This document shows positions 5,138 through 59,405 of a stretch of 64,000 bases of DNA, piece after piece. Each line of letters opens with the position of its first letter. Positions within the stretch are counted from its first letter, which is position 1. The notes under the pieces are model-generated. The model saw only the letters and a list, made by a program, of their open reading frames with translations, made no database searches and was not told where the DNA came from. The position numbers and the translations under genes were made by a program. The stretch is from Geovibrio thiophilus. Its GTDB lineage: Bacteria; Chrysiogenota; Deferribacteres; Deferribacterales; Geovibrionaceae. Location of the stretch: positions 2,728,001-2,792,000 of the forward strand of contig NZ_CP035108.1 in NCBI RefSeq assembly GCF_004087915.1. Direction: 5' to 3'.

Positions 5138-6142
5138 TTGAGAATCGGAATTATCGGAGCCACCGGGTTTACCGGATTTGAACTGGTGAAAATTCTTGTA
5201 AAACATCCTGAATTTAAAATAGCGGCACTTACCAGTACCTCGCTTGCGGGTACGCCCTATTCCGCCGTTTATCCCCAGCTCCGCGGCATTGTCGATAACC
5301 TGATAGAAAGCGACGACTATGACAAATGCGCCGAAAAGGTGGACGCAGTATTCCTCTGCCTTCCTCACACCGCAAGTCAGGAGGCGGCTGCCTTCTTCCT
5401 TTCCAAAGGGAAAAAAGTCGCTGACCTCAGCGCTGATTTCCGGCTGGGAAGCAAAGAACTCTACGAATTCGTATACAAAGTTCCACACAAAAAAGAGGAA
5501 CTCTTCGCAGAAGCAGTCTACGGCATGCCCGAAATCTTCGGTGAACAGCTTAAAACCGCCAGACTGGCAGCCATTCCCGGCTGCTATCCGACATCCGTGA
5601 TTATGCCCCTGTTTCCCCTTTTAAAGGAAGGGCTTATAGACGGCGATTTCATAGTTGCGGACAGCAAATCCGGCATCACAGGCGCAGGCAAGACCCCGTC
5701 AGAGAAAACACATTTCTGCAATGTGCAGGAAAACTTTCAGGCATACGGCGTCCTCAGCCACAGACATAACCCCGAAATAAACTATATTCTCGGCAAAGCG
5801 GGGAAACACGTGGACGTGATATTCACCCCCCACCTCGCACCCATAAATAAAGGAATCGAAAGCACAATTTACGCACGGTCACATACTGATATATTCCAGC
5901 TGGCTGAGTGCCTCAAGACATTCTACAAAGGCAGGAGATTCGTCCGAATACTCGACTTCGGGAATGCCGCCGCCACCGCAAATGTGCGTGATACCAACTT
6001 CATAGACATCGCACTGTTTAAAAAAGCAGATAAACTCGTCATAACCTCCGCCATAGATAATCTCGTAAAAGGCGCAAGCGGAGCCGCAGTCCAAACCATG
6101 AACATCATGTGCGGACTGGATGAAACAACAGGACTGATATAG
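5138..6142 (+). CDS. argC: N-acetyl-gamma-glutamyl-phosphate reductase
   Basis: ArgC reduces N-acetylglutamyl-5-phosphate with NADPH to the semialdehyde, the third step of arginine synthesis. The 334-residue protein shows the Rossmann start GIIGATGFTGFEL, FLCLPHTAS near residue 73, the catalytic cysteine in AIPGCYPTS (Cys149), SGITGAGKTP, and the histidine-rich YGVLSHRHNPEI. Length is typical. It begins with TTG, supported by a GGAGG seven bases upstream; no in-frame ATG fits. argJ follows on the same strand after a 362-bp gap that holds a hairpin and a repeat insertion. Confidence 0.95.
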   Translation: MRIGIIGATGFTGFELVKILVKHPEFKIAALTSTSLAGTPYSAVYPQLRGIVDNLIESDDYDKCAEKVDAVFLCLPHTASQEAAAFFLSKGKKVADLSADFRLGSKELYEFVYKVPHKKEELFAEAVYGMPEIFGEQLKTARLAAIPGCYPTSVIMPLFPLLKEGLIDGDFIVADSKSGITGAGKTPSEKTHFCNVQENFQAYGVLSHRHNPEINYILGKAGKHVDVIFTPHLAPINKGIESTIYARSHTDIFQLAECLKTFYKGRRFVRILDFGNAAATANVRDTNFIDIALFKKADKLVITSAIDNLVKGASGAAVQTMNIMCGLDETTGLI

Positions 6143-6154
6143 AGTATAGATTTA

Positions 6155-6212
6155 TCTAGGAAAACTTTTTGAAAAAAGCTTTTCCTAGAACCTTTCAAAA
6201 ACTTTTACCTGC
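6155..6212 (+). repeat. AT-rich long hairpin with conserved tail after argC
   Basis: TCTAGGAAAA (6155-6164) pairs with TTTTCCTAGA (6180-6189) around an internal CTTTTTGAAAAAAG. A tail, GAACCTTTCAAAAACTTTT, follows directly. Similar architecture with a different outer stem occurs at 46765-46813 and, more loosely, at 32717-32751. It could terminate argC transcription. Confidence 0.55.
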
Positions 6213-6316
6213 TTCGCAAAGATATGGTTTCTTTGGGAAGGAGCATGAGGAAACACTTTCTTTCCCATTAAAGAAAGGGTTTCTTCATTTAAAGCTTAAT
6301 AAATACAGGAGATAAA

Positions 6317-6389
6317 TATCATGGAACATATAAAAGGCGCAGGCGTATGCGGCTCTTGCTTTACAGGCTCGGATTTCACATCCGTGTAA
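6317..6389 (+). other. Duplicated argJ start forming a 22-codon upstream ORF
   Basis: Positions 6317-6351 are an exact 35-base copy of 6501-6535, that is, the bases just before argJ and its first ten codons. The copy has its own GGAG-type ribosome site and reads MEHIKGAGVC, then GSCFTGSDFTSV, then stops with TAA at 6387-6389. It is either a relic of the repeat insertion that separates it from argJ, or a translated leader that could affect argJ expression. Confidence 0.7.
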
Positions 6390-6500
6390 TTCCTCGCCAC
6401 ACGCTCGCGGGCGGGTAAACCGCCCTTCGCTTCGCACGGCGTGTTTCCATCCATGGAAACTTAAAAGGTGCGCATTAGAAATTACAGATTAAGGAGAATT
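6352..6500 (+). repeat. Covarying triple-hairpin repeat, copy A (between duplicated argJ starts)
   Basis: This single element lies between two 35-bp copies of the argJ start, with a 184-bp period. It carries an imperfect hairpin around CACATCCGTG (6372-6390), a GGGCGG/CCGCCC hairpin (6409-6425) flanked by ACGCTCGCG and TTCGCTTCGCACGGCG, and a GTTTCC/GGAAAC hairpin with loop ATCCAT (6443-6460). Its right part (6464-6475) is a 12-base inverted copy of argJ 6531-6542. Confidence 0.75.
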
Positions 6501-6504
6501 TATC

Positions 6505-7704
6505 ATGGAACATATAAAAGGCGCAGGCGTATGCGCACCTTTGGGATTTTCGGCATCGAGTGCGGTTGCGGATGTTAAGGGGAACGGCAAGGGGAAGAGG
6601 GACATGGCTCTTCTTTATTCTGAGGTTCCGTTTAATGCGGCGGCTGTTTTCACATCCAACAAGTTTTGTGCTGCACCGGTTATTCACGGGCGGGAGCTTA
6701 TCGGTAAGAAGGGCAAGTTCAGCGCCATAGTTGTAAACAGCGGCAACGCCAATGCCTGCACAGGTGAGAAGGGGCTTGCGGCCTGCGGTGAGATAACTAA
6801 GGCTTTCGCTGCGGAGCTTGATGTGGATGAGAAAGCTGTGCTGATTTCCTCCACAGGTGTAATAGGTGTTCAGCTTCCTGTGGGGAAAATGACCGCTAAG
6901 GCGGGCGAGCTGATTGACGAGCTTGACTCCGGCAATTCACATGAATTTGCCGAAGCGATCATGACTACTGACGCTGTGAAGAAGGAATATGCCGTGCTGG
7001 TGGAGACACAAAACGGAGCCTATGTGGTTGCTGGCGCTGCGAAGGGAGCGGGTATGATCGCCCCGTCCATGGCGACGATGCTTGCTTTCATCACGACAGA
7101 CGCTGCCGTGAAGACAGACGCATTGCAGGAAGCGCTGAGTCATGCTATGACAGACAGCTTCAACAGCGTCACCGTTGACGGTGACATGAGCACTAATGAT
7201 ACTGTATTTCTTTTCGCAAACGGTATGAGCGGCATTATCCCGAACAGGGAGGAGTTTTTCGAGGCGGTGAAGACCGTGTGCGTTGAACTTGCGAAGATGA
7301 TAGTGAGAGACGGTGAAGGGGCGACAAAGTTCTGCACATTCAAGGTCGTGAACGCCGCAACGGACGAGGACGCGAAGAAATGCGCCTTTGCCGTTGCCAA
7401 TTCCCCTCTGGTGAAAACAATGCTCCATGGGGAAGACCCCAACTGGGGAAGGATTTTCGCCACAGTGGGCGCATGCGGAATACAGTGCAGGCAGGACAAT
7501 GTGGATCTGTATTTTGAAAATCTGAAATACGCCGAAAACGGCATAATCATTGATTACGCTCTTGAGCCGCAGGCTGCGGCGATAATGAAGAAAAAAGATA
7601 TAGAGATCACTGTGGATCTGAAAGAGGGCTCAGCTTCAAAGACAGTGTACACCTGCGATTTCACAAAGGAGTACATCTCTATCAACGCTGATTACAGAAG
7701 CTAG
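6505..7704 (+). CDS. argJ: Bifunctional ornithine acetyltransferase / N-acetylglutamate synthase
   Basis: ArgJ recycles the acetyl group from N-acetylornithine to glutamate and, in the bifunctional form, also makes N-acetylglutamate from acetyl-CoA. The 399-residue precursor contains KGAGMIAPSMATMLAF. Self-cleavage before Thr191 (the A-T-M-L site) is expected to yield alpha and beta chains, with that threonine as nucleophile. VNSGNANACTG near residue 78 and the C-terminal DEYSINADYRS-like end (EYISINADYRS) are also typical. The ATG at 6505 has AAGGAG eight bases upstream. An exact copy of its first ten codons lies 184 bp upstream. Whether the enzyme is mono- or bifunctional cannot be settled from sequence by eye. 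Confidence 0.95.
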   Translation: MEHIKGAGVCAPLGFSASSAVADVKGNGKGKRDMALLYSEVPFNAAAVFTSNKFCAAPVIHGRELIGKKGKFSAIVVNSGNANACTGEKGLAACGEITKAFAAELDVDEKAVLISSTGVIGVQLPVGKMTAKAGELIDELDSGNSHEFAEAIMTTDAVKKEYAVLVETQNGAYVVAGAAKGAGMIAPSMATMLAFITTDAAVKTDALQEALSHAMTDSFNSVTVDGDMSTNDTVFLFANGMSGIIPNREEFFEAVKTVCVELAKMIVRDGEGATKFCTFKVVNAATDEDAKKCAFAVANSPLVKTMLHGEDPNWGRIFATVGACGIQCRQDNVDLYFENLKYAENGIIIDYALEPQAAAIMKKKDIEITVDLKEGSASKTVYTCDFTKEYISINADYRS

Positions 7705-7818: not shown

Positions 7819-10200
7819 TTAACCGAGAAGTGAAAGAGCCATCTGCGGAAGGCTGTTCGCCTGAGCAAGCATGGAGATGTTCGACTGAGCCAGAATCTGG
7901 TTCTTAGTGAATTTTGCCATCTCGTCTGCTATGTCAAGGTCACGAATCCTTGATTCAGCGGCAGTCAGGTTCTCTCTTGTGGTGTCGAGACCTGTCATAG
8001 TGTACTCAAGTCTGTTGATCTGAGCACCTATTGTAGCTCTCACGCCTGATACAGTTTCAAGAGCCTTGTCAAGCTTGGTGATTGATTCCTGAGCGAGCTC
8101 CTGATCAACCATGAGAATGTCATCGATTCCAAGTGAGGTAGTGTCAACCTGCGGTATGTTTGCGAGGATTGTCTGACCTTCGTTGGCGCCTATCTGCATT
8201 TCCATGGCGTTGTCAACAAGGTGAAGCTTGATGTCTTCGCTTTCGCCTGTTGCGGAGAATTCCATTGTTTTCTTAGTGGAATTCCAGCTTATGCTGACTC
8301 CCACATCACTGTCTATCTTAACGTCAACACCCTGAATTACTCCTCTGAGGGTTGAATCGTTAACGGAGTCGGAACCTATAAACTTGCCTGTGTGAGCGTC
8401 AGTAACTTTTATTGTCGTCTCACTGTTCTCCCCTTCCTGAATAGTAGCAAGAGAGAGGGCGTTGATAAGGTTCTGGTCGCCGATGAAGGACAGCTTGCTG
8501 TCGTCGCCGAGGCGCGCGGTCTGGATTACGAAAGTTCCTGCGAGGGCTTCGTTTGAGCTGTCAGTAACATCACCTGTTGAAACATAGTTAACAAGGTTGC
8601 TGTTTACTGTTGCTGCCTCATCGCTGGTTCCGGCTGTAGCGCCCATACCGAGTTCGAGTATTGCGCTGGAAAGCTTGGTTTCAAATTCAGAAACCGTATC
8701 ATCTCCTTCGAGATAGATAGTTGCTGAGCTTCCGTTGCCGAAGATTGTCAGTTCCTGAGGACCGGCTGCGAAAATGTTTACGCCGTCGTCAGTTGTGAAT
8801 CTGGAAATATCTTTCAGTTTTGTTGTGCTGGTCGCAGCTTCGCCGCCGCCTGCCACAAGAAGGTCAAAAGAACCGCCGGTTGTTGAACCGTAAGCAGTGT
8901 CAGTGCCTGTGTCTTCTCTGAAGTTGAATGTCAGGTTGCCCACGTCAAGGTTGCCTGTTTCAACATTAAGAGCAGCATGGTAAACAGTTACGCTGTTGTA
9001 ATCGATAGTGGTATCGCCGTTGTCAACTTTAGTCAGTTCGTTGTTGCCATAGGAAATAATTGCACCGGTTGTTCCTGCGGGACCGCCGGAGATAGCAATT
9101 GTACCGCCGCCTGAGGTTGCTGAGGTATCAACAGCTTCAGTTGTGCTGAGCAGTATTTTATCTCCTGACTGCATGTTGGCATCTGTTCCTATAGCGATTG
9201 AAACTTCGCCTGAGAAACCTGCACCCGTCATGTCTGCAAGATCAAAAACAAGGTTGCCGGCACCGTCATCTCCGCCCTCGATTTCATAAGTTGACTTCTC
9301 GCCTGTTTTGGCGTCAACAAAGGTGGCTTTGAAAGTGTAGTTCGCTGTAGTACCTGCTGACACGGTGAAATTTTCCTGAGCTTCAATCAGAAGATAACCG
9401 GAATCGGCAACTGTACCGCCTGTTGTCCATGTGGCAACAGAACCGAAGTTAGAACCTGCCTGTCTGTAAACGCTCATGGTTGCTACGGAAGAAAGAGTAT
9501 CCGCACCGGCAGTCACGTCTACAGTGTAGTAAGCAGTGCCTGTGGAAGCGAGAGTGTTGGGGTCTGTTACGAAGCCGACGTTGGTTTCGTTTACATCTCC
9601 GCCTGCGGTGACAATTTCAGCGCCGATAGCGTCTTCGTTGAGGGTCATAACGTCTGATTTGTAGACAAAGTTTTTACCGGGGTCTACAGTAACGTTAAGA
9701 TTGTAGTTGCCTTCAGCAACAGCGCTTTTGATAACAACGTCAAGGTCGGAACTGTCGGAAGACCAAAGAGCGGTGGAATCTCCGTTAAGAAGCTTCTTAG
9801 TGTTGAACTCAGTTGAGGAAGCTATTCTGTTGATCTCTTCCTTAAGCTGATCAACCTCTTTCTGGATCTCAGCCCTGTCGTTTGTGGTATAAACACCGTT
9901 GCCCGCCTGAACAGCAAGCTCTCTCATTCTCTGAAGCATGTCCTGAATGTTCTGCAGTCCGCCTTCAGCAGTCTGAAGGAGTGAGATACCGTCCTGGGCG
10001 TTGAGTGAAGCTCTTTTAAGACCGCTTATCTGGCCTCTTAATTTCTCGGAAATTGCAAGACCGGATGCGTCGTCCGATGCCGAGTTGATTCTAAGACCGC
10101 TTGAAAGTCTCTCAAGGGACTTAGATACCGCGTTGTTTGTCTCTCCCAGATACCTCTGAGCTGTCAGAGAAGGGACGTTCGTGTTGATATACATTGCCAT
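7819..10200 (-). CDS. fliC: Flagellin 1, large-domain type
   Basis: This is the filament protein of the flagellum. At 793 aa it is much larger than the usual 280-500. The conserved D0/D1 parts are at both ends: N-terminal [54 protein letters not shown], and the C-terminal half ending [25 protein letters not shown]. Between residues of about 170 and 690 lies a Ser/Thr/Gly/Asp-rich insertion with beta-strand character, probably the surface D2/D3 domains and the place for O-glycosylation by the neighbouring Pse/Maf system. GGAGG lies seven bases before the ATG. It is a close paralogue of the flagellin at 11119-13503. Confidence 0.95.
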   Translation of the reverse strand: MAMYINTNVPSLTAQRYLGETNNAVSKSLERLSSGLRINSASDDASGLAISEKLRGQISGLKRASLNAQDGISLLQTAEGGLQNIQDMLQRMRELAVQAGNGVYTTNDRAEIQKEVDQLKEEINRIASSTEFNTKKLLNGDSTALWSSDSSDLDVVIKSAVAEGNYNLNVTVDPGKNFVYKSDVMTLNEDAIGAEIVTAGGDVNETNVGFVTDPNTLASTGTAYYTVDVTAGADTLSSVATMSVYRQAGSNFGSVATWTTGGTVADSGYLLIEAQENFTVSAGTTANYTFKATFVDAKTGEKSTYEIEGGDDGAGNLVFDLADMTGAGFSGEVSIAIGTDANMQSGDKILLSTTEAVDTSATSGGGTIAISGGPAGTTGAIISYGNNELTKVDNGDTTIDYNSVTVYHAALNVETGNLDVGNLTFNFREDTGTDTAYGSTTGGSFDLLVAGGGEAATSTTKLKDISRFTTDDGVNIFAAGPQELTIFGNGSSATIYLEGDDTVSEFETKLSSAILELGMGATAGTSDEAATVNSNLVNYVSTGDVTDSSNEALAGTFVIQTARLGDDSKLSFIGDQNLINALSLATIQEGENSETTIKVTDAHTGKFIGSDSVNDSTLRGVIQGVDVKIDSDVGVSISWNSTKKTMEFSATGESEDIKLHLVDNAMEMQIGANEGQTILANIPQVDTTSLGIDDILMVDQELAQESITKLDKALETVSGVRATIGAQINRLEYTMTGLDTTRENLTAAESRIRDLDIADEMAKFTKNQILAQSNISMLAQANSLPQMALSLLG

Positions 10201-10338
10201 TTTAATACCTCCGTGTTTTCATGGCCGGCATCCTTGCCGTGTTTACTCTTGGTTTTTGCCGAAATCTTCACCCGCCCCATAAAAGCAGGGGTTCCGTGAA
10301 AACCGATAAAAAGGATCTGAAATTTTTTCAAAAAAAAA

Positions 10339-10386
10339 GACCGATGACAGGATTAAACCTGACATCGGCCCGAGTATTTCAGTACC
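10339..10386 (-). promoter_or_regulatory. Terminator-like hairpin and conserved box in the flagellin 1 leader
   Basis: On the minus strand a box GGTACTGAAATA (10375-10386) precedes CGGGCC, then a stem GGCCGATGTCAGG/CCTGTCATCGGTC (10339-10370, one mismatch and one G-T pair), followed by nine T. It sits between the sigma-28 promoter (10475-10501) and the start codon at 10200, so it lies inside the 5' leader. The same arrangement recurs before flagellin 2. Confidence 0.7.
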
Positions 10387-10474
10387 AATTCTTATTAAGT
10401 TTTATTTCGGCGTTTATAGGAAGATGAGGCTCATATGCTATGTCGCCTTTGGTGTCTTCCTCTTGTTGAATACA

Positions 10475-10501
10475 GTATCGAAAATAGAATAGAGATCTTT
10501 A
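10475..10501 (-). promoter_or_regulatory. Sigma-28 (FliA) promoter of flagellin 1
   Basis: On the minus strand TAAAGATC, 11 bases and TTCGATAC match the FliA consensus (TAAAGTTT, 11, GCCGATAA) with exact spacing. It lies about 275 bp upstream of the start codon. No other FliA or sigma-54 match was found nearer the gene. Confidence 0.7.
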
Positions 10502-10600
10502 GAGGAAAATTTAAAAAAGATCGAAAAATGACGCTAGTTCATTGAGGGAAAAGGATTATAAAAATTATATCCCTTTTTAAAAATCTGCCCGATTAAGGAT

Positions 10601-10624
10601 GGAGGGCAGGCTTACCTGCCCTCC
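10601..10624 (-). terminator. Strong hairpin downstream of flaG
   Basis: GGAGGGCAGG (10601-10610) pairs perfectly with CCTGCCCTCC (10615-10624) around a four-base loop, 44 bp after the flaG stop. No T-run follows immediately, so it may stabilise the 3' end or terminate only partly. Confidence 0.5.
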
Positions 10625-10667
10625 GCTTTATTCTGTTCCTGCTGATGTTCTTTACAAAGAAGTTTCC

Positions 10668-11057
10668 CTAAAACTTTTCATCCAGCATAAGCCCCACCAT
10701 CTCCTTGATGTTCCGGGAGAGCCGAAGAGCCTCTTCGGAGGGGATCTGCTTGATTACACTGCCGTGGTCTTTGTCGATCAGCTTTACGATTACCGCGTTA
10801 AGCTGTTTTTCAACACTGAACTCACGCCTCACATCCATTGTTCTGAGGCTTTCGTTAAGCTTTTCGACTGCGGCCTGTACTTCCTCGGGTTTAACTTTTT
10901 TATTTTCCTTCTCAGTGTCCACCTTTTCGGCAGCGTTGCCGAAGAGTTTTTCATTAACCAGTTTTATTGACTGCGAAACACTCTGAGTTGCCTGTGCTTT
11001 TGCTCCGCTGCCCGCATCGGGTGCACCTGTTTGAACGTTCTTTACAGATTCAATCAT
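10668..11057 (-). CDS. flaG: FlaG family flagellar protein
   Basis: FlaG-family proteins influence flagellar filament length in several bacteria. The 129-residue protein has a Gln/Ala/Ser/Lys-rich N-terminal half and the conserved FlaG core at the C-terminus: EFSVEKQLNAVIVKLIDKD, then GSVIKQIPSEEALRLSRNIKEMVGLMLDEKF. It follows flagellin 2 by 61 bp on the same strand, so the two probably form one operon. An AAGG-type ribosome site lies before the ATG. Flagellin-flaG order is common in polar-flagellate bacteria. Confidence 0.9.
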   Translation of the reverse strand: MIESVKNVQTGAPDAGSGAKAQATQSVSQSIKLVNEKLFGNAAEKVDTEKENKKVKPEEVQAAVEKLNESLRTMDVRREFSVEKQLNAVIVKLIDKDHGSVIKQIPSEEALRLSRNIKEMVGLMLDEKF

Positions 11058-11077
11058 GATTACACCTTATCCATTAT

Positions 11078-11107
11078 CAGGGGAGGCGGTTTTCACCGTC
11101 TCCCCTG
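11078..11107 (-). promoter_or_regulatory. Intercistronic hairpin between flagellin 2 and flaG
   Basis: CAGGGGAG (11078-11085) pairs with CTCCCCTG (11100-11107), with an inner CGGT/ACCG stem. There is no T-run. It probably sets the transcript ratio or protects the 3' end of the abundant flagellin message, with flaG downstream. Confidence 0.5.
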
Positions 11108-11118
11108 AAGTAGCTTTA

Positions 11119-13503
11119 TTACCCTATAAGCGAAAGAGCCATCTGCGGAAGAGCATTAGCCTGCGAAAGCATGGCGATGTTCGACTGAGCCAGAATCTGG
11201 TTCTTAGTGAATTTTGCCATCTCGTCTGCTATGTCAAGGTCACGAATCCTTGATTCAGCGGCAGTCAGGTTCTCTCTTGTGGTGTCGAGACCTGTCATAG
11301 TGTACTCAAGCCTGTTGATCTGAGCACCTATTGTAGCTCTCACGCCGGACACAGTTTCCAGCGCTTTGTCGAGCTTAGTAATAGAACTCTGGGCAAGATC
11401 CTGATCAACCATGAGAATGTCATCAATACCGAGCGAAGTGGTATTTATCTGCGGTATGTTCGCAAGGATAGTCTGACCTTCGTTAGCGCCGATCTGCATT
11501 TTCATGGCGTTGTCAACAAGGTGAAGCTTGATGTCTTCACTTTCGCCGTTAGCCGTGAAGTTAAGCTCTTTAGTGGAAGAATCCCAGCTTATATCCACAC
11601 CGACATCACTGTCTATTTTGACATCAACACCCTGAATAACTCCTCTGAGGGTTCCGTCATTAACCTTGTCGGAACCGATGAATTTGCCTGAGTGAGCATC
11701 AGTGACCTTAATTGTCATTTCGCTGTTTTCACCTTCCTGAATAGTGGCAAGGGAAAGAGCGTTGATGAAGTTCTGGTCGCCGATGAAGGAAAGCCTGCTC
11801 TCTTCTCCGAGACGTGCGGACTGGATCACGAAAGTGCCTGCAAGAGCTTCATTGGTATTGTCAGTATCATCACCTGTTGAAACATAGTTTACGAGGTTGT
11901 TGTTCACGGTGGTGGCTTCGTCGCTGGTGTTTGATGTTGCGCCCATGCCGAGACCGCTTACCATTGCCTCAGAAAGTTTTGTCTCAAAATCGGAGATCGT
12001 GTCGTCACCTTCGATATAGATGGTAGCGGATTTTCCGTTACCGTAGATCGTAAGCTCCTGAGGACCTGCGGCAAAAATATTAACACCGTCATCGGTTGTG
12101 AATCTGGCTATATCTTTGAGTTTTGTTGTGCTCGCCGCTGCCTCTCCGCCGCCTAGAATCTGAAGATCGAAAGTGCCGGCATCAGTTGAGCCGTAAGCAG
12201 TGTCGGTGCCGGTGTTCTCTCTGAAATTGAATGTCAGGTTGCCTATGTCAAGGTTGCCTGTCTCATCATTAAGAACCGCATGGTAAACAGTTACGCTGTT
12301 GTAGTCTATTGTGGTGTCGCCGTTGTCGACCTTGGTCAGCTCATTATTGCCGTAAGACAGAGTCGGTCCTGTTGTGCCGGAAACTCCGCCGGAGAGCTGG
12401 ATTGTACCCCCGCCGGAAGTAGTTGATGTATCAACAGCTTCTGTTGCGCTGAGGAGTATTTTGTCTCCGGACTGCACATTGGCGTCTGTTCCGATGGCAA
12501 ATGAAACTTCACCGCTGATACCTGCGCCTGTAATATCTGCAAGATCAAACACAAGATTGCCGGCACCGTCATCTCCGCCTTCAATTTCAACCGAAGTTTC
12601 CACACCGGTTTTAGCATTTATGAAGGTGGCTTTGAAGGTGTAGTTCGCTGTTGTACCTGCTGACACGGCAAAGTCTTCCTGAGCCTCAAGCAGAATATAA
12701 CCGGAATCGCCAATGGTACCGCCTGTTGTCCACGTGGTTGCTGTGCTGAAGTTAGAGCCTGCCTGCCTGTAGGCGCTCAGTGTAACAAGAGCGGAATCGG
12801 TATCCGCACCTGCGCCCACTGTTACTGTGTAGTAAGACGTGCCTGTGGAAGCAAGAGTGTTGGGATCTGTTACGAAGCCGACGTTGGTTTCGTTTACATC
12901 TCCGCCTGCGGTGACAATTTCAGCGCCGATAGCGCCTTCGTTGAGGGTCATAACGTCTGATTTGTAGACATAGTTTTTACCGGGGTCTACTGTAACGTTA
13001 AGGTTGTAGTTGCCTTCAGCGACTGCGCTTTTGATTATGGCATCCAGAGAGGAATTATCTGAAGACCAGAGAGCTGTGGAATCTCCGTTAAGAAGCTTCT
13101 TGGTGTTGAACTCTGTGGAAGAGGATATTCTGTTGATCTCTTCCTTAAGCTGGTCAACCTCTTTCTGGATCTCAGCCCTGTCGTTTGTGGTGTAAGTTCC
13201 GTTGCCCGCCTGAACAGCGAGCTCTCTCATTCTCTGAAGCATGTCCTGAATGTTCTGCAGCCCGCCTTCTGCGGTCTGAAGAAGTGAAATACCGTCCTGG
13301 GCGTTCAGCGAGGCTCTTTTGAGTCCGCTTATCTGTCCCCTTAATTTCTCAGAAATGGCAAGACCGGATGCGTCGTCCGATGCCGAGTTGATTCTAAGAC
13401 CGCTTGAGAGTCTTTCAAGAGATTTTGAGATGTCGTTGTTTGTCTGTCCCAGATACCTCTGCGCGGTGAGAGACGGAACATTAGTATTGATATACATTGC
13501 CAT
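11119..13503 (-). CDS. fliC: Flagellin 2, large-domain type
   Basis: This 794-residue flagellin is nearly collinear with flagellin 1. N-terminal D0/D1 ([36 protein letters not shown]) and C-terminal D1/D0 (RIRDLDIADEMAKFTKNQIL, ending QANALPQMALSLIG) are almost identical to it. The central domain of about 520 residues is clearly homologous but has scattered substitutions. It is the first gene of a probable flagellin-flaG unit. AAGGAGGAC lies just upstream of the ATG at 13503. A long leader holds a terminator-like hairpin and three 11-base repeats. The pair probably arose by duplication and may exchange sequence by gene conversion. Confidence 0.95.
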   Translation of the reverse strand: MAMYINTNVPSLTAQRYLGQTNNDISKSLERLSSGLRINSASDDASGLAISEKLRGQISGLKRASLNAQDGISLLQTAEGGLQNIQDMLQRMRELAVQAGNGTYTTNDRAEIQKEVDQLKEEINRISSSTEFNTKKLLNGDSTALWSSDNSSLDAIIKSAVAEGNYNLNVTVDPGKNYVYKSDVMTLNEGAIGAEIVTAGGDVNETNVGFVTDPNTLASTGTSYYTVTVGAGADTDSALVTLSAYRQAGSNFSTATTWTTGGTIGDSGYILLEAQEDFAVSAGTTANYTFKATFINAKTGVETSVEIEGGDDGAGNLVFDLADITGAGISGEVSFAIGTDANVQSGDKILLSATEAVDTSTTSGGGTIQLSGGVSGTTGPTLSYGNNELTKVDNGDTTIDYNSVTVYHAVLNDETGNLDIGNLTFNFRENTGTDTAYGSTDAGTFDLQILGGGEAAASTTKLKDIARFTTDDGVNIFAAGPQELTIYGNGKSATIYIEGDDTISDFETKLSEAMVSGLGMGATSNTSDEATTVNNNLVNYVSTGDDTDNTNEALAGTFVIQSARLGEESRLSFIGDQNFINALSLATIQEGENSEMTIKVTDAHSGKFIGSDKVNDGTLRGVIQGVDVKIDSDVGVDISWDSSTKELNFTANGESEDIKLHLVDNAMKMQIGANEGQTILANIPQINTTSLGIDDILMVDQDLAQSSITKLDKALETVSGVRATIGAQINRLEYTMTGLDTTRENLTAAESRIRDLDIADEMAKFTKNQILAQSNIAMLSQANALPQMALSLIG

Positions 13504-21980: not shown

Positions 21981-22025
21981 AGCACACCTCCATGTTTTAG
22001 GAAACTACATCCATGTTTTCAATGA

Positions 22026-24431
22026 CTAACCCTGAAGAAGCGAAAGAGCCATCTGGGGTATCTGATTAGCCTGCGCCAGCATTGCTACGCCTGATTGGCT
22101 GAGTATCTGATACCTTGTGAACGTCGCCATTTCATCCGCAACATCAAGGTCGCGTATGCGTGATTCGGCGGCGGTCATATTCTCTCTTGCCGTATCAAGG
22201 TTTGTGATGGTGTATTCGAGCCTGTTGATCTGCGCACCGATAGTCGCCCTCACGGTTACAACCTTGTTCAGAGCGGCATCAATATCGGGGATGGCCCTTT
22301 GAGCAAGTGTCTGTGAAACAAGGGTAACATTCTCAATTCCGAGCCCCTCAACATCAAGCTGAGGAATGGACACTGAGAGAGACTGCCCCTGATTCGCTCC
22401 GATCTGGAGATCTGTGGAGTTATCAACAACATGGAGGAAATGTTCTTTCGCGGCGGAGCTGGTGTCTGTCGCAAATTCTATTGACTGAGTAACAGAGTTC
22501 CATGTTTCGGTAACGCCGGCGCGGGAGTCTATAACTATTTCCACACCGTCGATTATACCGTAAACCCTGTCATCACTTGTTTCGTCCACACCGACAAGCT
22601 GACCAGTGTGAGCGTCTTTTACAGTTACCTTAGTGGTGTTGTTCACTGATTCCTGAATCTCAGCGAGAGAAAAAGCGTCTATAAGAGCCTGATCGCCGCT
22701 GAAAGAAATCTCTCCCTGCTCTCCTGTAAGAGCTGTCTGGATTATGAAAGTACCCTTAACGCTTCTTTCACCGCTGTTGGAGGGCATTGAAACGTAATCC
22801 ACGAGATGGCTGTTTACGCTGGCGGAATCAGAACCCATGCCGAGTTCGGCAATAGCTTCCTCAAGCTTCTGTTCAAGGTCTGCTATGGTGTCGTCGCCCT
22901 GAAGGTATATGGTAATGTTAGAGCCGTTACCCCATATTGTGAGTTCCTGTTTGTTGCTGAAAATATTATTCCCGTCAGCATCAGTAAACACCGATATATC
23001 CTTCAGTTTGGTCGTTGTAGTTGCCGCTTCGCCCGCTCCGGTGATTTCAAGATCAAAGGCATCTGTCATAGTGCGCCCGTTCGGGGTGGGCTGATCGTTT
23101 GACAGCTCCTTGAAATTCAGCGTCAGGTTACCGAGGTCAAGGTTTCCTGTCTGGGTATTGAGCTGAGCATAGTAAACCTGAACCTGATTGTAGTCGGTTA
23201 TAGTGTCTCCGTTGTCGGGAGGAGTGAGTGAATTCTGGGCTGTGAAGTAGATCGTGGGACCGTTCTGTCCTACGGGACCGCCTGTAAGCTGGATAGAACC
23301 GCCGCCTGATCCCGCGTAGTTGCCGTTTGCCGCGACACCGCCTGAGAGCGAGAAGAGAACCTTGTCACCGCTCTGCACAGAGCCGCTGGCTGAAAGCGTA
23401 AAGCTGAAGTCTATGTCTATGGTGTTGCCGGCGGAGTTCTGAAGACCCGCTGCGGCTGTGTCCACAGTATATGTTGAAGATGAAAGCGCAGTGTAGGCTG
23501 CCGTAACCTTAACCCACTGGCTTACCGTGCCCGTAAGGGCGTCTATGAATCTTACATTAAGGGTTACATTCGCAGTGTCGCCGGCGTTGGCATCGTCAGC
23601 GAATTCGACTTCGATATAACCGCTTCTGCCGCCTGTCGCGGCTGCTGTTGCATTGCTCACAAGGAAGGAAGAGCCGGGTTGTCCGTAGTATGCCAGAGTC
23701 TGGACTGTGCTTGATGAGCTTGCTATGACTCCGTTGCCGCTTATTACAACACTGAAGTACGCAGTGCCTGTAGACGGCATTGTTTCGGGATCGCTGACAA
23801 AAGATACGTTTGTCAGGTTTCCGCTGGATGAGCCTGAGGTTACTATCTCAGCGCCGATTATACCATCCTTAAGGGTCATGATGTCGGTTTTAAAAACCTG
23901 ATTCTGACCGGCCTGAGTATTGAGCTCAATTTTGTAGTTCCCTTCGGCCACGTCGTCTCTGATTATTGCGCTGATCGCGTCACTGCTTGCAGACCAGAGA
24001 GCTGTTCCGTCACCGTTGAGAAGCTTTTTGGTGTTGAATTCGGTAGAGGTGGAGATCCTGTCGATCTCGTCTTTGAGCTGGTCGACTTCCTTCTGGATTT
24101 CGATCCTGTCGTTTGAGGTATAGGTACCGTTCGCCGCCTGAACTGCGAGTTCTCTCATACGCTGAAGCATGGAGCTTACTTCGCCGAGGGCGCCTTCTGC
24201 GGTCTGGAGCATGGATATACCGTCCTGAGCGTTCATTGACGCTCTTTTAAGACCGGTTATCTGCCCTCTGAGTTTTTCGGATATCGCCAGGCCGGAAGCA
24301 TCGTCTGCTGCGTGGTTGATACGCAGACCTGATGAGAGTCTCTCAAGAGACTTACTGAGTTGGTTCTGAGTTTGTCCGAGGTATCTCTGCGTATTCAGAG
24401 ACATCACGTTCTGATAAATTGTGAGTGCCAT
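22026..24431 (-). CDS. fliC: Flagellin 3, large-domain type
   Basis: This third giant flagellin is 801 aa from the ATG at 24431, which has AAGGAGG just upstream; an in-frame start at 24488 is less likely. The ends are conserved ([41 protein letters not shown]; ending [29 protein letters not shown]). The middle part of about 510 residues is homologous to, but clearly diverged from, flagellins 1 and 2, with different insertions. It is rich in Ser, Thr, Gly and Asn. Its leader is short and lacks the terminator-like hairpin of the other two, so its expression is probably controlled differently. Confidence 0.95.
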
Positions 24432-24487
24432 GTCATCCTCCTTGATTCTTTCAATAGAGGCATCTCGCGCTTCCTTGCGCATATTCA

Positions 24488-46764: not shown

Positions 46765-46813
46765 TCGGGGTACTTTTTTAACTGAAAAAAAGCTCCCCGA
46801 ACCCTTCAAAAAA
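46765..46813 (-). repeat. AT-rich long hairpin with conserved tail between mtnP and lolD
   Basis: TCGGGG (46765-46770) pairs with CCCCGA (46795-46800) around TACTTTTTTAACTGAAAAAAAGCT. A GAACCCTTCAAAAAA tail follows. This is the same plan as 6155-6212 with a different outer stem. Confidence 0.55.
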
Positions 46814-47026
46814 CCGAGTCGGTATACCCTGTCGGATTCGGATACACGCTCGCGCCTTGCAGAGCAAGGCTTCGCTTCGCACGGCGCATCCCCGTCCTTG
46901 GGGGATGGTCAGCTCTTTCTGTTCTGATAATCCGAATCCGCACATCCTGTCGGATTCGGATACACGCTCGCGCCTTGCAGAGCAAGGCTTCGCTTCGCAC
47001 GGCGCATCCCCGTCCTTGGGGGATGG
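46813..47026 (+). repeat. Covarying triple-hairpin repeat, copies B1 and B2, with a duplicated lolD end
   Basis: Two tandem copies lie 118 bp apart. B2 has stem ATCCGAATCCG/CGGATTCGGAT around the conserved CACATCCTGT tip, ACACGCTCGCG, stem GCCTTGC/GCAAGGC, CTTCGCTTCGCACGGCG and stem CATCCCC/GGGGATG. B1 is the same except for a degenerate left arm. Between them, 46909-46931 repeats the last bases of lolD (47027-47050) with two differences. Confidence 0.8.
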
Positions 47027-47683
47027 TCAGCTCTTTTCTATTCTGATAATCCTGTCGCAGGAGTTTGCGATGGCGTCTTCGTGGGTGACGATGAGGATTG
47101 TCACACCTTCATCCCGCATGAGGCGGATCATATCCAGAACCTCATCGCTGTTTTTCTTATCAAGGCTGCCTGTGGGTTCATCAGCGAGAAGGATCTTCGG
47201 GCTGTTCATCATAGCCCTTGCGATTGCCGTTCTCTGCTGTTCGCCACCGGAGAGTTCAGCGGGAAAGTGTGTTGTTCTGCTTTCCAGCCCAACCTTGGTG
47301 AGCAGTTCCTTAGCCCTCTTCGCAGCAGCGTCTATGTTCACTCCGCCTATGAGAGCGGGCATCATAACGTTTTCCAAAGCGGTAAAATCTTCCAGCAGGT
47401 AATGAAACTGGAACACAAAACCCACATCCTTATTCCTGAACTGGTCAACGGCTTTCCCCTTGAGCTTAAGAATGTCCTCACCCTGAAACATTACAGAACC
47501 TGAGTCCGGCTTATCCAGACCGCCGATAATGTGCAGCAGGGTTGATTTGCCCGCACCGGAAGGACCGACTATGGCGAGCATTTCGCCTTTTTCCACATTC
47601 ATGCTGAAGCCGCTGAGGACGTTCAGCCTGTAGTCGCCCTTGAGAAAGCTTTTGTTGAGATCTATTATTTCAAGCAGACTCAT
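47027..47683 (-). CDS. lolD: Lipoprotein-releasing ABC transporter ATPase LolD
   Basis: LolD powers release of outer-membrane lipoproteins from the inner membrane. The 218-residue ABC protein has Walker A VGPSGAGKSTLLHIIGGLD, a Q-loop in VGFVFQFHYLLEDFTALENV, signature ELSGGEQQRTAIARAM and Walker B KILLADEPTGSLDKKNS. The FQFHYLL stretch is typical of LolD. It abuts lolC/E with no gap. Its last bases are duplicated in the downstream repeat locus. Confidence 0.93.
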   Translation of the reverse strand: MSLLEIIDLNKSFLKGDYRLNVLSGFSMNVEKGEMLAIVGPSGAGKSTLLHIIGGLDKPDSGSVMFQGEDILKLKGKAVDQFRNKDVGFVFQFHYLLEDFTALENVMMPALIGGVNIDAAAKRAKELLTKVGLESRTTHFPAELSGGEQQRTAIARAMMNSPKILLADEPTGSLDKKNSDEVLDMIRLMRDEGVTILIVTHEDAIANSCDRIIRIEKS

Positions 47684-50590: not shown

Positions 50591-50603
50591 TCGCAGCTTA
50601 TAT

Positions 50604-51194
50604 CACGGATTCACCCAGTAGTTGGGCGCTTCCTTAGTTAGCTGACTGTCAATCACAAACCGGACATCCTGTCGGTTTGTGATACACGCTCGCGGGCGGA
50701 TAAACCGCCCTTCGCTGCGCACAGCGAGCTCCTGTCATGGGAGCCTTACCTTACGGATTCACCCAGTAGTTGGGCGCTTCCTTAGTTAGCTGACTGTCAA
50801 TCACAAACCGGACATCCTGTCGGTTTGTGATACACGCTCGCGGGCGGATAAACCGCCCTTCGCTGCGCACGGCGAGCTCCCGTCATGGGAGCCTTACCTT
50901 ACGGATTCACCCAGTAGTTGGGCGCTTCCTTAGTTAGCTGACTGTCAATCACAAACCGGACATCCTGTCGGTTTGTGATACACGCTCGCGGGCGGATAAA
51001 CCGCCCTTCGCTGCGCACGGCGAGCTCCCGTCATGGGAGCCTTACCTTACGGATTCACCCAGTAGTTGGGCGCTTCCTTAGTTAGCTGACTGTCAATCAC
51101 AAACCGGACATCCTGTCGGTTTGTGATACACGCTCGCGGGCGGATAAACCGCCCTTCGCTGCGCACGGCGGGCTCCCGTCATGGGAGCCTTACC
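50604..51194 (+). repeat. Four tandem copies (148-bp unit) of the triple-hairpin repeat plus guaB 3' end
   Basis: The marker CGGATTCACCC recurs at 50606, 50754, 50902, 51050 and 51198, exactly 148 bp apart; the last is the real guaB end. Each unit holds about 37 bp of guaB 3' end and about 110 bp of element. The element has stem ATCACAAACCG/CGGTTTGTGAT with tip GACATCCTGT, then ACACGCTCGCG, stem GGGCGG/CCGCCC, TTCGCTGCGCACGGCG, and stem GCTCCC/GGGAGC. Units differ by only a few bases. Confidence 0.9.
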
Positions 51195-52667
<1,473 letters not shown>

Positions 52668-58969: not shown

Positions 58970-59054
58970 TTGGTCCTCCTTATTAATTAAATATGTTTAA
59001 CGGGGGAACAAGTTAATATATTCTCCCTGTTCAAAACCTGCGTTGTCTTAATTA

Positions 59055-59405
59055 GTATATAAATCCGCACATCCTGTCGGATTTATACACACGCTCGCGG
59101 GCGGGTAACCCGCCCTTCGCTTCGCACGGCGCATTCCCATCCATGGAAATGTGTTGCATAACACACTGCCGTGTCAATTAAATATGTTTTCGGCGTGAGC
59201 CGATTAACGGCTGTCACCGCTTAAACTTCCGCTGAGTTTCAGTAGTATATAAATCCGCACATCCTGTCGGATTTATACACACGCTCGCGGGCGGGTAACC
59301 CGCCCTTCGCTTCGCACGGCGCATTCCCATCCATGGGAATGTGTTGCATAACACACTGCCGTGTCAATTAAATATGTTTTCGGCGTGAGCCGATTAACGG
59401 CTGTC
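59055..59405 (+). repeat. Covarying triple-hairpin repeat, copies D1 and D2 (190-bp period)
   Basis: Two near-identical units start at 59055 and 59245. Each has stem TATAAATCCG/CGGATTTATA around CACATCCTGT, then CACGCTCGCG, stem GGGCGGG/CCCGCCC with loop TAA, CTTCGCTTCGCACGGCG, and stem CATTCCC/GGGAATG with loop ATCCAT (D1 has GGAAATG). Each unit ends with a copy of AATTAAATATGTTT from the hppA leader (58985-58998) and an AGCCGATTAACGGCT inverted repeat. Confidence 0.88.

Follow-up and report, generated by a model that had tools for sequence, protein, structure and literature searches.

The window, a stretch of 64,000 nucleotides of DNA from Geovibrio thiophilus (genome G000, complete in one contig of 3.0 Mb), carries the gene argJ downstream of a gene which we take to be argC from the original prediction and from recognition of its sequence (Table 1). 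Analysis of the region between the two genes reveals that the start of argJ is present twice. As the original prediction had stated, an exact 35-nt direct repeat, TATCATGGAACATATAAAAGGCGCAGGCGTATGCG, with its own ribosome site lies 184 bp upstream of the argJ start (6317-6351 and 6501-6535, 35 of 35 positions identical). The likeness between the two copies extends upstream with changes, to 44 nt at 93%. A repeat of this length is far above chance, and the surrounding 1.4 kb contains no second one. The true argJ start is the second copy. With an AGGAG and an ATG (6321) of its own, the upstream copy opens a 22-codon reading frame which codes, again in agreement with the prediction, for MEHIKGAGVC followed by 12 further residues, GSCFTGSDFTSV, and closes with a stop codon at 6387-6389. 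Ribosome site, frame and length of this upstream ORF are kept in three species (G000 and its congeners G001 and G002). Two or more other dispersed repeats together make up the spacer on the argC side of the repeat.

Table 1. Features of the argC-argJ region and further family elements in the window.
Feature	Position	Strand	Basis
argC, upstream gene	5138-6142	+	ORF and translation
argC-argJ spacer, other dispersed repeats, outside the hairpin element	6143-6316		20 matches in own genome
T1, spare argJ edge: 4 nt before ATG, ATG, codons 1-10	6317-6351	+	35/35 identical to 6501-6535; not in G003
22-codon upstream ORF, begins in T1 and closes within HP1	6321-6389	+	Sequence; equal length in G001 and G002
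Three-hairpin non-coding element, plus orientation	6352-6463	+	Family search and alignment; covariance model region 6362-6462
HP1, loop ATCC, stem varying between species with paired changes	6371-6393	+	Alignment, species comparison
HP2, variable stem, fixed linkers ACACGCTCGCG and CTTCGCTTCGCACGGCG on either side	6409-6425	+	Alignment
HP3, GTTTCC-ATCCAT-GGAAAC; minus-strand loop AUGGAU (ANGGAX)	6443-6460	+	Alignment, loop survey
AAAGGTGCGCAT, inverted copy of insertion junction	6464-6475	+	12/12 complementary to 6531-6542; 11-12 nt kept in three species
T2, repeat copy of intact argJ	6501-6535	+	35/35 identical to T1
argJ, intact	6505-7704	+	ORF
ATGCGCACCTTT, junction sequence across insertion point 6535/6536	6531-6542	+	Sequence, inverted-copy comparison
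Two tandem family elements	46811-47036		Families D4 and D7
Four-element tandem array; each unit repeats last 11 codons and stop of right-hand minus-strand gene	50597-51336		Family search, array analysis
Two tandem family elements and intergenic repeated unit	59048-59405		Family search, array analysis

The two copies of the argJ start are separated by a non-coding element of three hairpins. A covariance model of 41 copies contains 25 base pairs, 20 of which show pair-keeping changes on both sides. In the clusters with a long element-bounded repeat (19 of 90 surveyed), the left copy ends about 40-47 nt before the element core, and this near-constant distance places the 5' end of the element at a nearly fixed position. 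The 3' end is not fixed, with up to ~30 nt of other sequence present between HP3 and the right repeat copy. Insertion sites mostly end in TC. No Rfam family reached its gathering score for the hairpin element, and no match to it was found in the viral contigs searched. Some loci show additional arrangements of the family. At L049, the gene on the left apparently takes its stop codon from the 5' end of the element (..CATC followed by TGACTTAA), and at L055, L035 and L063 a further common repeat, GTCATTGCGAACCCTGAAAGGGTGAAGCAATCTC, is often situated between elements. A second kind of array (L038, L042, L040, L043 and L056) joins CCATC from the middle of the HP3 loop to the 5' end of the next element (TGTCTTA), which looks as if elements enter each other's loops.

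The element is present in high copy number within the argJ genus. We found 98 DNA matches to it in G000, mostly in short tandem arrays, and in all three congeneric species the covariance model reaches its scoring cap, which corresponds to at least 84 copies per genome. Elsewhere, the model detects 6 copies in G007, 26 weak copies in the sister-genus genome G003 and almost none in the rest of the class. The G003 elements (L259, L268, L280 and L282) keep outer loops of the GGA kind and have an unrelated, longer middle part. A search of 84,980 species genomes with the exact core pattern matched only the MAG Deferribacterales bacterium Deferri_01, in a collection that may lack the genome of the window and its very close relatives. 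Such an element is not described in the literature that we searched on Geovibrio and Deferribacteres repeats, long target duplications and gene-edge duplication by bacterial MITEs.

Comparison with relatives, which for G001 and G002 covers parts of the genomes, ties the argJ repeat to the entry of the element. At this locus in G003 (L071) the element is absent, and only one argJ start is present, about 9 nt beyond argC. Because the two genes lie side by side with one start in the sister genus, the repeat at argJ arose with the insertion, which is common to G001 and G002. According to the original prediction, a relative with the same copy and no element would speak against such a link; we looked for one, and the relatives with two copies (G001 and G002) carry the element. 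A second empty site is seen at L053 in G002, where G000 has a 23-bp duplication, ATATCTCGTAAATCTGCTCGCCC, around four elements and spanning the last codons of a gene. Under strict tests, 19 of the 90 clusters contain a long direct repeat delimited by the element, compared with 0.8% of shuffled flank pairs. After adding within-array repeats and extra loci, roughly 30 of 150 clusters have a repeat, and in 12 of 45 arrays a gene end is repeated in units. The original prediction had placed a gene-end duplication at each locus of the family and tied it to the insertion. The tie to insertion holds and the duplication recurs at other gene ends; however, the duplication is absent from many loci, so that this interpretation was only partly right. 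A subset of the element-flanking repeats is intergenic. Since many loci are tandem arrays with a unit of element plus flank, ordinary tandem duplication by slippage around the hairpins, unrelated to element entry, might be considered as the source of the repeats. This appears highly improbable, however, as single elements are bracketed on both sides by the repeat with sharp edges at the element, empty sites hold one copy, and slippage leaves unexplained both the gene-end boundary and the one-sidedness that are seen in the family.

These two properties are evident when the duplicated sequences are compared with the neighbouring genes. At two dozen or more loci besides argJ, either a gene start with its ribosome site or the last codons with the stop codon are copied beyond the element. 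In empty sites that we reconstructed, most repeats include either the stop codon of the HP3-side gene or its start together with the ribosome site; the distance between the stop codon and the outer repeat edge is 0-11 nt. In a peptide-level search of the argJ genus, every genuine gene-end case had its intact gene on the side of HP3, and none had it on the opposite side. Apparent cases with the gene on the left, as well as an antisense argJ ORF, were rejected as reading-frame shadows of the same repeats. A fliM-like start, MADILSQEEIDALLS, is doubled in G000 and G001, and a gene end, ..DMPASSTLLPVGSGVLLVNF followed by stop, in G000 and G002; further doubled gene ends are ..GSKATSDR and ..GEQIYEI, each followed by stop. 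Outside the genus, a diverged element in G011 is located between two copies of a moaC-like end, ..GGKSGTYIREE, and G007 has one start-type case, a doubled start with its ribosome site, whose polarity is opposite to that of the argJ genus.

In 92 clusters, compared with 37, the HP3-side gene is oriented toward the element, and in 39 its stop is located 0-40 nt away. Elements of the argJ genus are thus mostly situated downstream of stops in the mRNA sense. The element lies antisense to the gene at argJ and at the fliM-like locus, and in sense at the gene-stop loci; removal of the element by RNA splicing was rejected on this ground. The same arrangement bears on a possible RNA route, in which a transcript of the element joined to an mRNA 3' end primes at a nick in the gene; back-copying across the stop codon would then produce a duplication that ends where the mRNA part ends. 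This would account for the variable length of the repeats, the single fixed end of the element, the boundary at stop codons and the mostly mRNA-sense position just after stops. However, we regard this route as very unlikely, given the antisense element at the two start-type loci and the result of our search for the reverse transcriptase which target-primed reverse transcription requires: RVT_1 (PF00078) is absent from G000 and G002, and is present in G001.

The two copies of the argJ edge agree within a species and differ between species (CAGGAGATTTAATATGGAACATATAAAAGGCGCTGGCGTA in G001, TTAAGGAGAATTTATCATGGAACATATAAAAGGCGCAGGAGTATGCG in G002). They are identical over 40-47 nt in G001 and in G002, and in G000 they differ only before position 6317. 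Copies at L043 are likewise alike within species and different between species, and at L059 variants appear swapped between the copies across species. Judged from these alignments, evolution of the copies is concerted within species. Comparison of the copies at 15 gene-stop loci (195 codons) gives 20 synonymous codon differences and 1 non-synonymous one, where the neutral expectation is 22% synonymous (P 1.4e-12); the choice of some of these loci by peptide match favours synonymous differences, but a DNA search alone also recovered most of the loci with differences. At G002 C3:135675, six apparent non-synonymous codons proved to be an artefact of a shorter repeat. All 15 copy pairs end in stop codons, which are different in five of the pairs. 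Because the differences are almost only synonymous and five loci have differing stops, the spare copy must presumably often act as the true end of the gene. Its appearance at the informative loci is that of a usable end and not of a decoy, and a dead copy would not be expected to show such patterns. A neutral stranded copy with occasional gene conversion is disfavoured by the 20:1 excess of synonymous differences.

The argJ locus itself says nothing on selection, because the coding parts of its copies do not differ. It is conceivable that the upstream argJ copy has been retained to lower the synthesis of ArgJ, as a decoy or leader ORF with a regulatory role, as its features common to the three species would suggest, together with a 12-bp stem that can enclose the real argJ start. 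We consider this quite unlikely, however: general duplication of gene edges explains the copy without any function, the fold of the leader is not unusual (z -0.5), and, relative to G001, codons outside the shared part have changed both silently and in the encoded amino acid. The upstream ORF is compatible with a decoy but needs none, and the copy is most simply a leftover gene edge from the insertion.

Y1 transposase (PF01797) is absent from G000, G001 and G002, and a RAYT-like gene is present only in G007. At three loci, namely argJ (three species), the fliM-like locus (two species) and G001 C13:341613, an inverted copy of 10-12 nt of the insertion junction is located beside HP3. None of 200 local controls at each of these loci has such a copy, and most loci of the family are without one. 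By analogy, it may act as a guide as in IS608, or it may be filler copied during entry. To our knowledge, IS200/IS605 elements leave no target duplication. They are otherwise similar to the Geovibrio element in being hairpin-rich with a short target motif, and the base pairing between element and target in IS608 (PMC5934647) possibly parallels the inverted junction copy; the Geovibrio element differs in being flanked by long repeats, lacking a transposase and coding no protein. A mechanism of this style would take the element plus T2 as the excisable unit, cut at T1/element and at T2/gene body, with the inverted junction copy guiding the cut by base pairing. Excision would then join T1 to the gene body, so T1 must stay codable, as is observed. 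The inverted copy spanning the insertion point, the fixed 5' end and the sites mostly ending in TC also agree with it. Nevertheless, such excision is unlikely in view of the missing Y1 transposase and the many loci without an inverted copy, and the making of T2 at a new site is left unexplained.

We therefore favour target duplication: the double argJ start probably results from the entry of a small non-coding mobile hairpin element, by which the gene edge ends up on both sides, with interchange of alleles. Entry would take place close to one end of a gene, behind a site that usually ends in TC, and the sequence between the entry point and the functional end (stop, or ribosome site and start) would be present on both sides of the element. 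The gene would not be broken, because its body keeps one full copy of the edge, and the second copy would be stranded beyond the element. Alleles with and without the element would interchange, with loss through recombination between the repeats and regain through recombination or renewed insertion; because of this interchange, the stranded copy would regularly be the real end of the gene. Such interchange would be the simplest cause of usable spare copies. Plain random insertion with random-length duplication predicts neither a repeat edge at the stop codon nor a gene on one side only. Against target duplication stand the opposite polarity of the G007 start-type case, the lack of either enzyme in G000 and G002, and the roughly 120 of 150 clusters with no gene-end repeat, which may be older, intergenic or different.

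Known families of small mobile elements resemble the Geovibrio element in part. Like REP/REPIN sequences with their RAYT (TnpAREP) transposases (PMC3116915, PMC8266576), it is short, dispersed, palindromic non-coding DNA in many copies, often clustered and mostly intergenic. It differs from these in its three hairpins, whose loops are fixed and whose stems vary freely, in its long gene-edge duplications and in the lack of a RAYT gene in the carrier genus. MITE-like elements such as RU-1, BOX and RUP (PMC2229807, PMC3049150) are likewise non-autonomous, about 100-150 bp long and of high copy number. However, no consistent terminal inverted repeats were seen in the Geovibrio element, and its duplication is long and variable rather than short and fixed. 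A MITE of a DDE transposon would have terminal inverted repeats and a fixed short duplication, whereas here the duplication length varies widely and the 3' end is not fixed.

The loops of the outer hairpins have a recognizable form. On the minus strand, 45 of 52 HP3 hexaloops read A-N-GGA-X directly on a stem closed by C-G, with N and X variable, and the HP1 loops are mostly AGGAX or ANGGAX. ANGGAX is the structurally defined high-affinity form for CsrA/RsmE, and AGGAX, without N, is weaker (PMC4005645). Each congener has one csrA gene. The ANGGAX loops usually lie on the strand that continues the mRNA of the gene; the argJ mRNA carries the other strand. The outer hairpins may represent candidate CsrA/RsmE-binding RNA. 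They are similar to RNAs such as RsmZ (PMC4005645) in having ANGGAX or AGGAX loops directly on stems, but they are dispersed genome-wide as a mobile element. We found no literature joining REP, CsrA and transposable elements. We tentatively suggest, as a reading that is open to considerable doubt, that the mobile element brings CsrA-type RNA hairpins to gene ends, rebuilds the start or stop on entry while respecting gene boundaries, leaves both copies codable, and comes and goes without breaking the host gene. If so, a short non-coding repeat could settle inside genes harmlessly, with its entry restoring the gene edge and the edges being interchangeable. This would provide a concrete route for the spread of repeats through coding-dense genomes, a possible way for mRNAs to acquire regulatory sites of the CsrA type, and a case open to testing where neither obvious enzyme family is present.

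Downstream of argJ, positions 7819-13503 of the window contain two adjoining, very similar flagellin-like genes of ~794 codons, and a third related stretch is located near 22025-24444.
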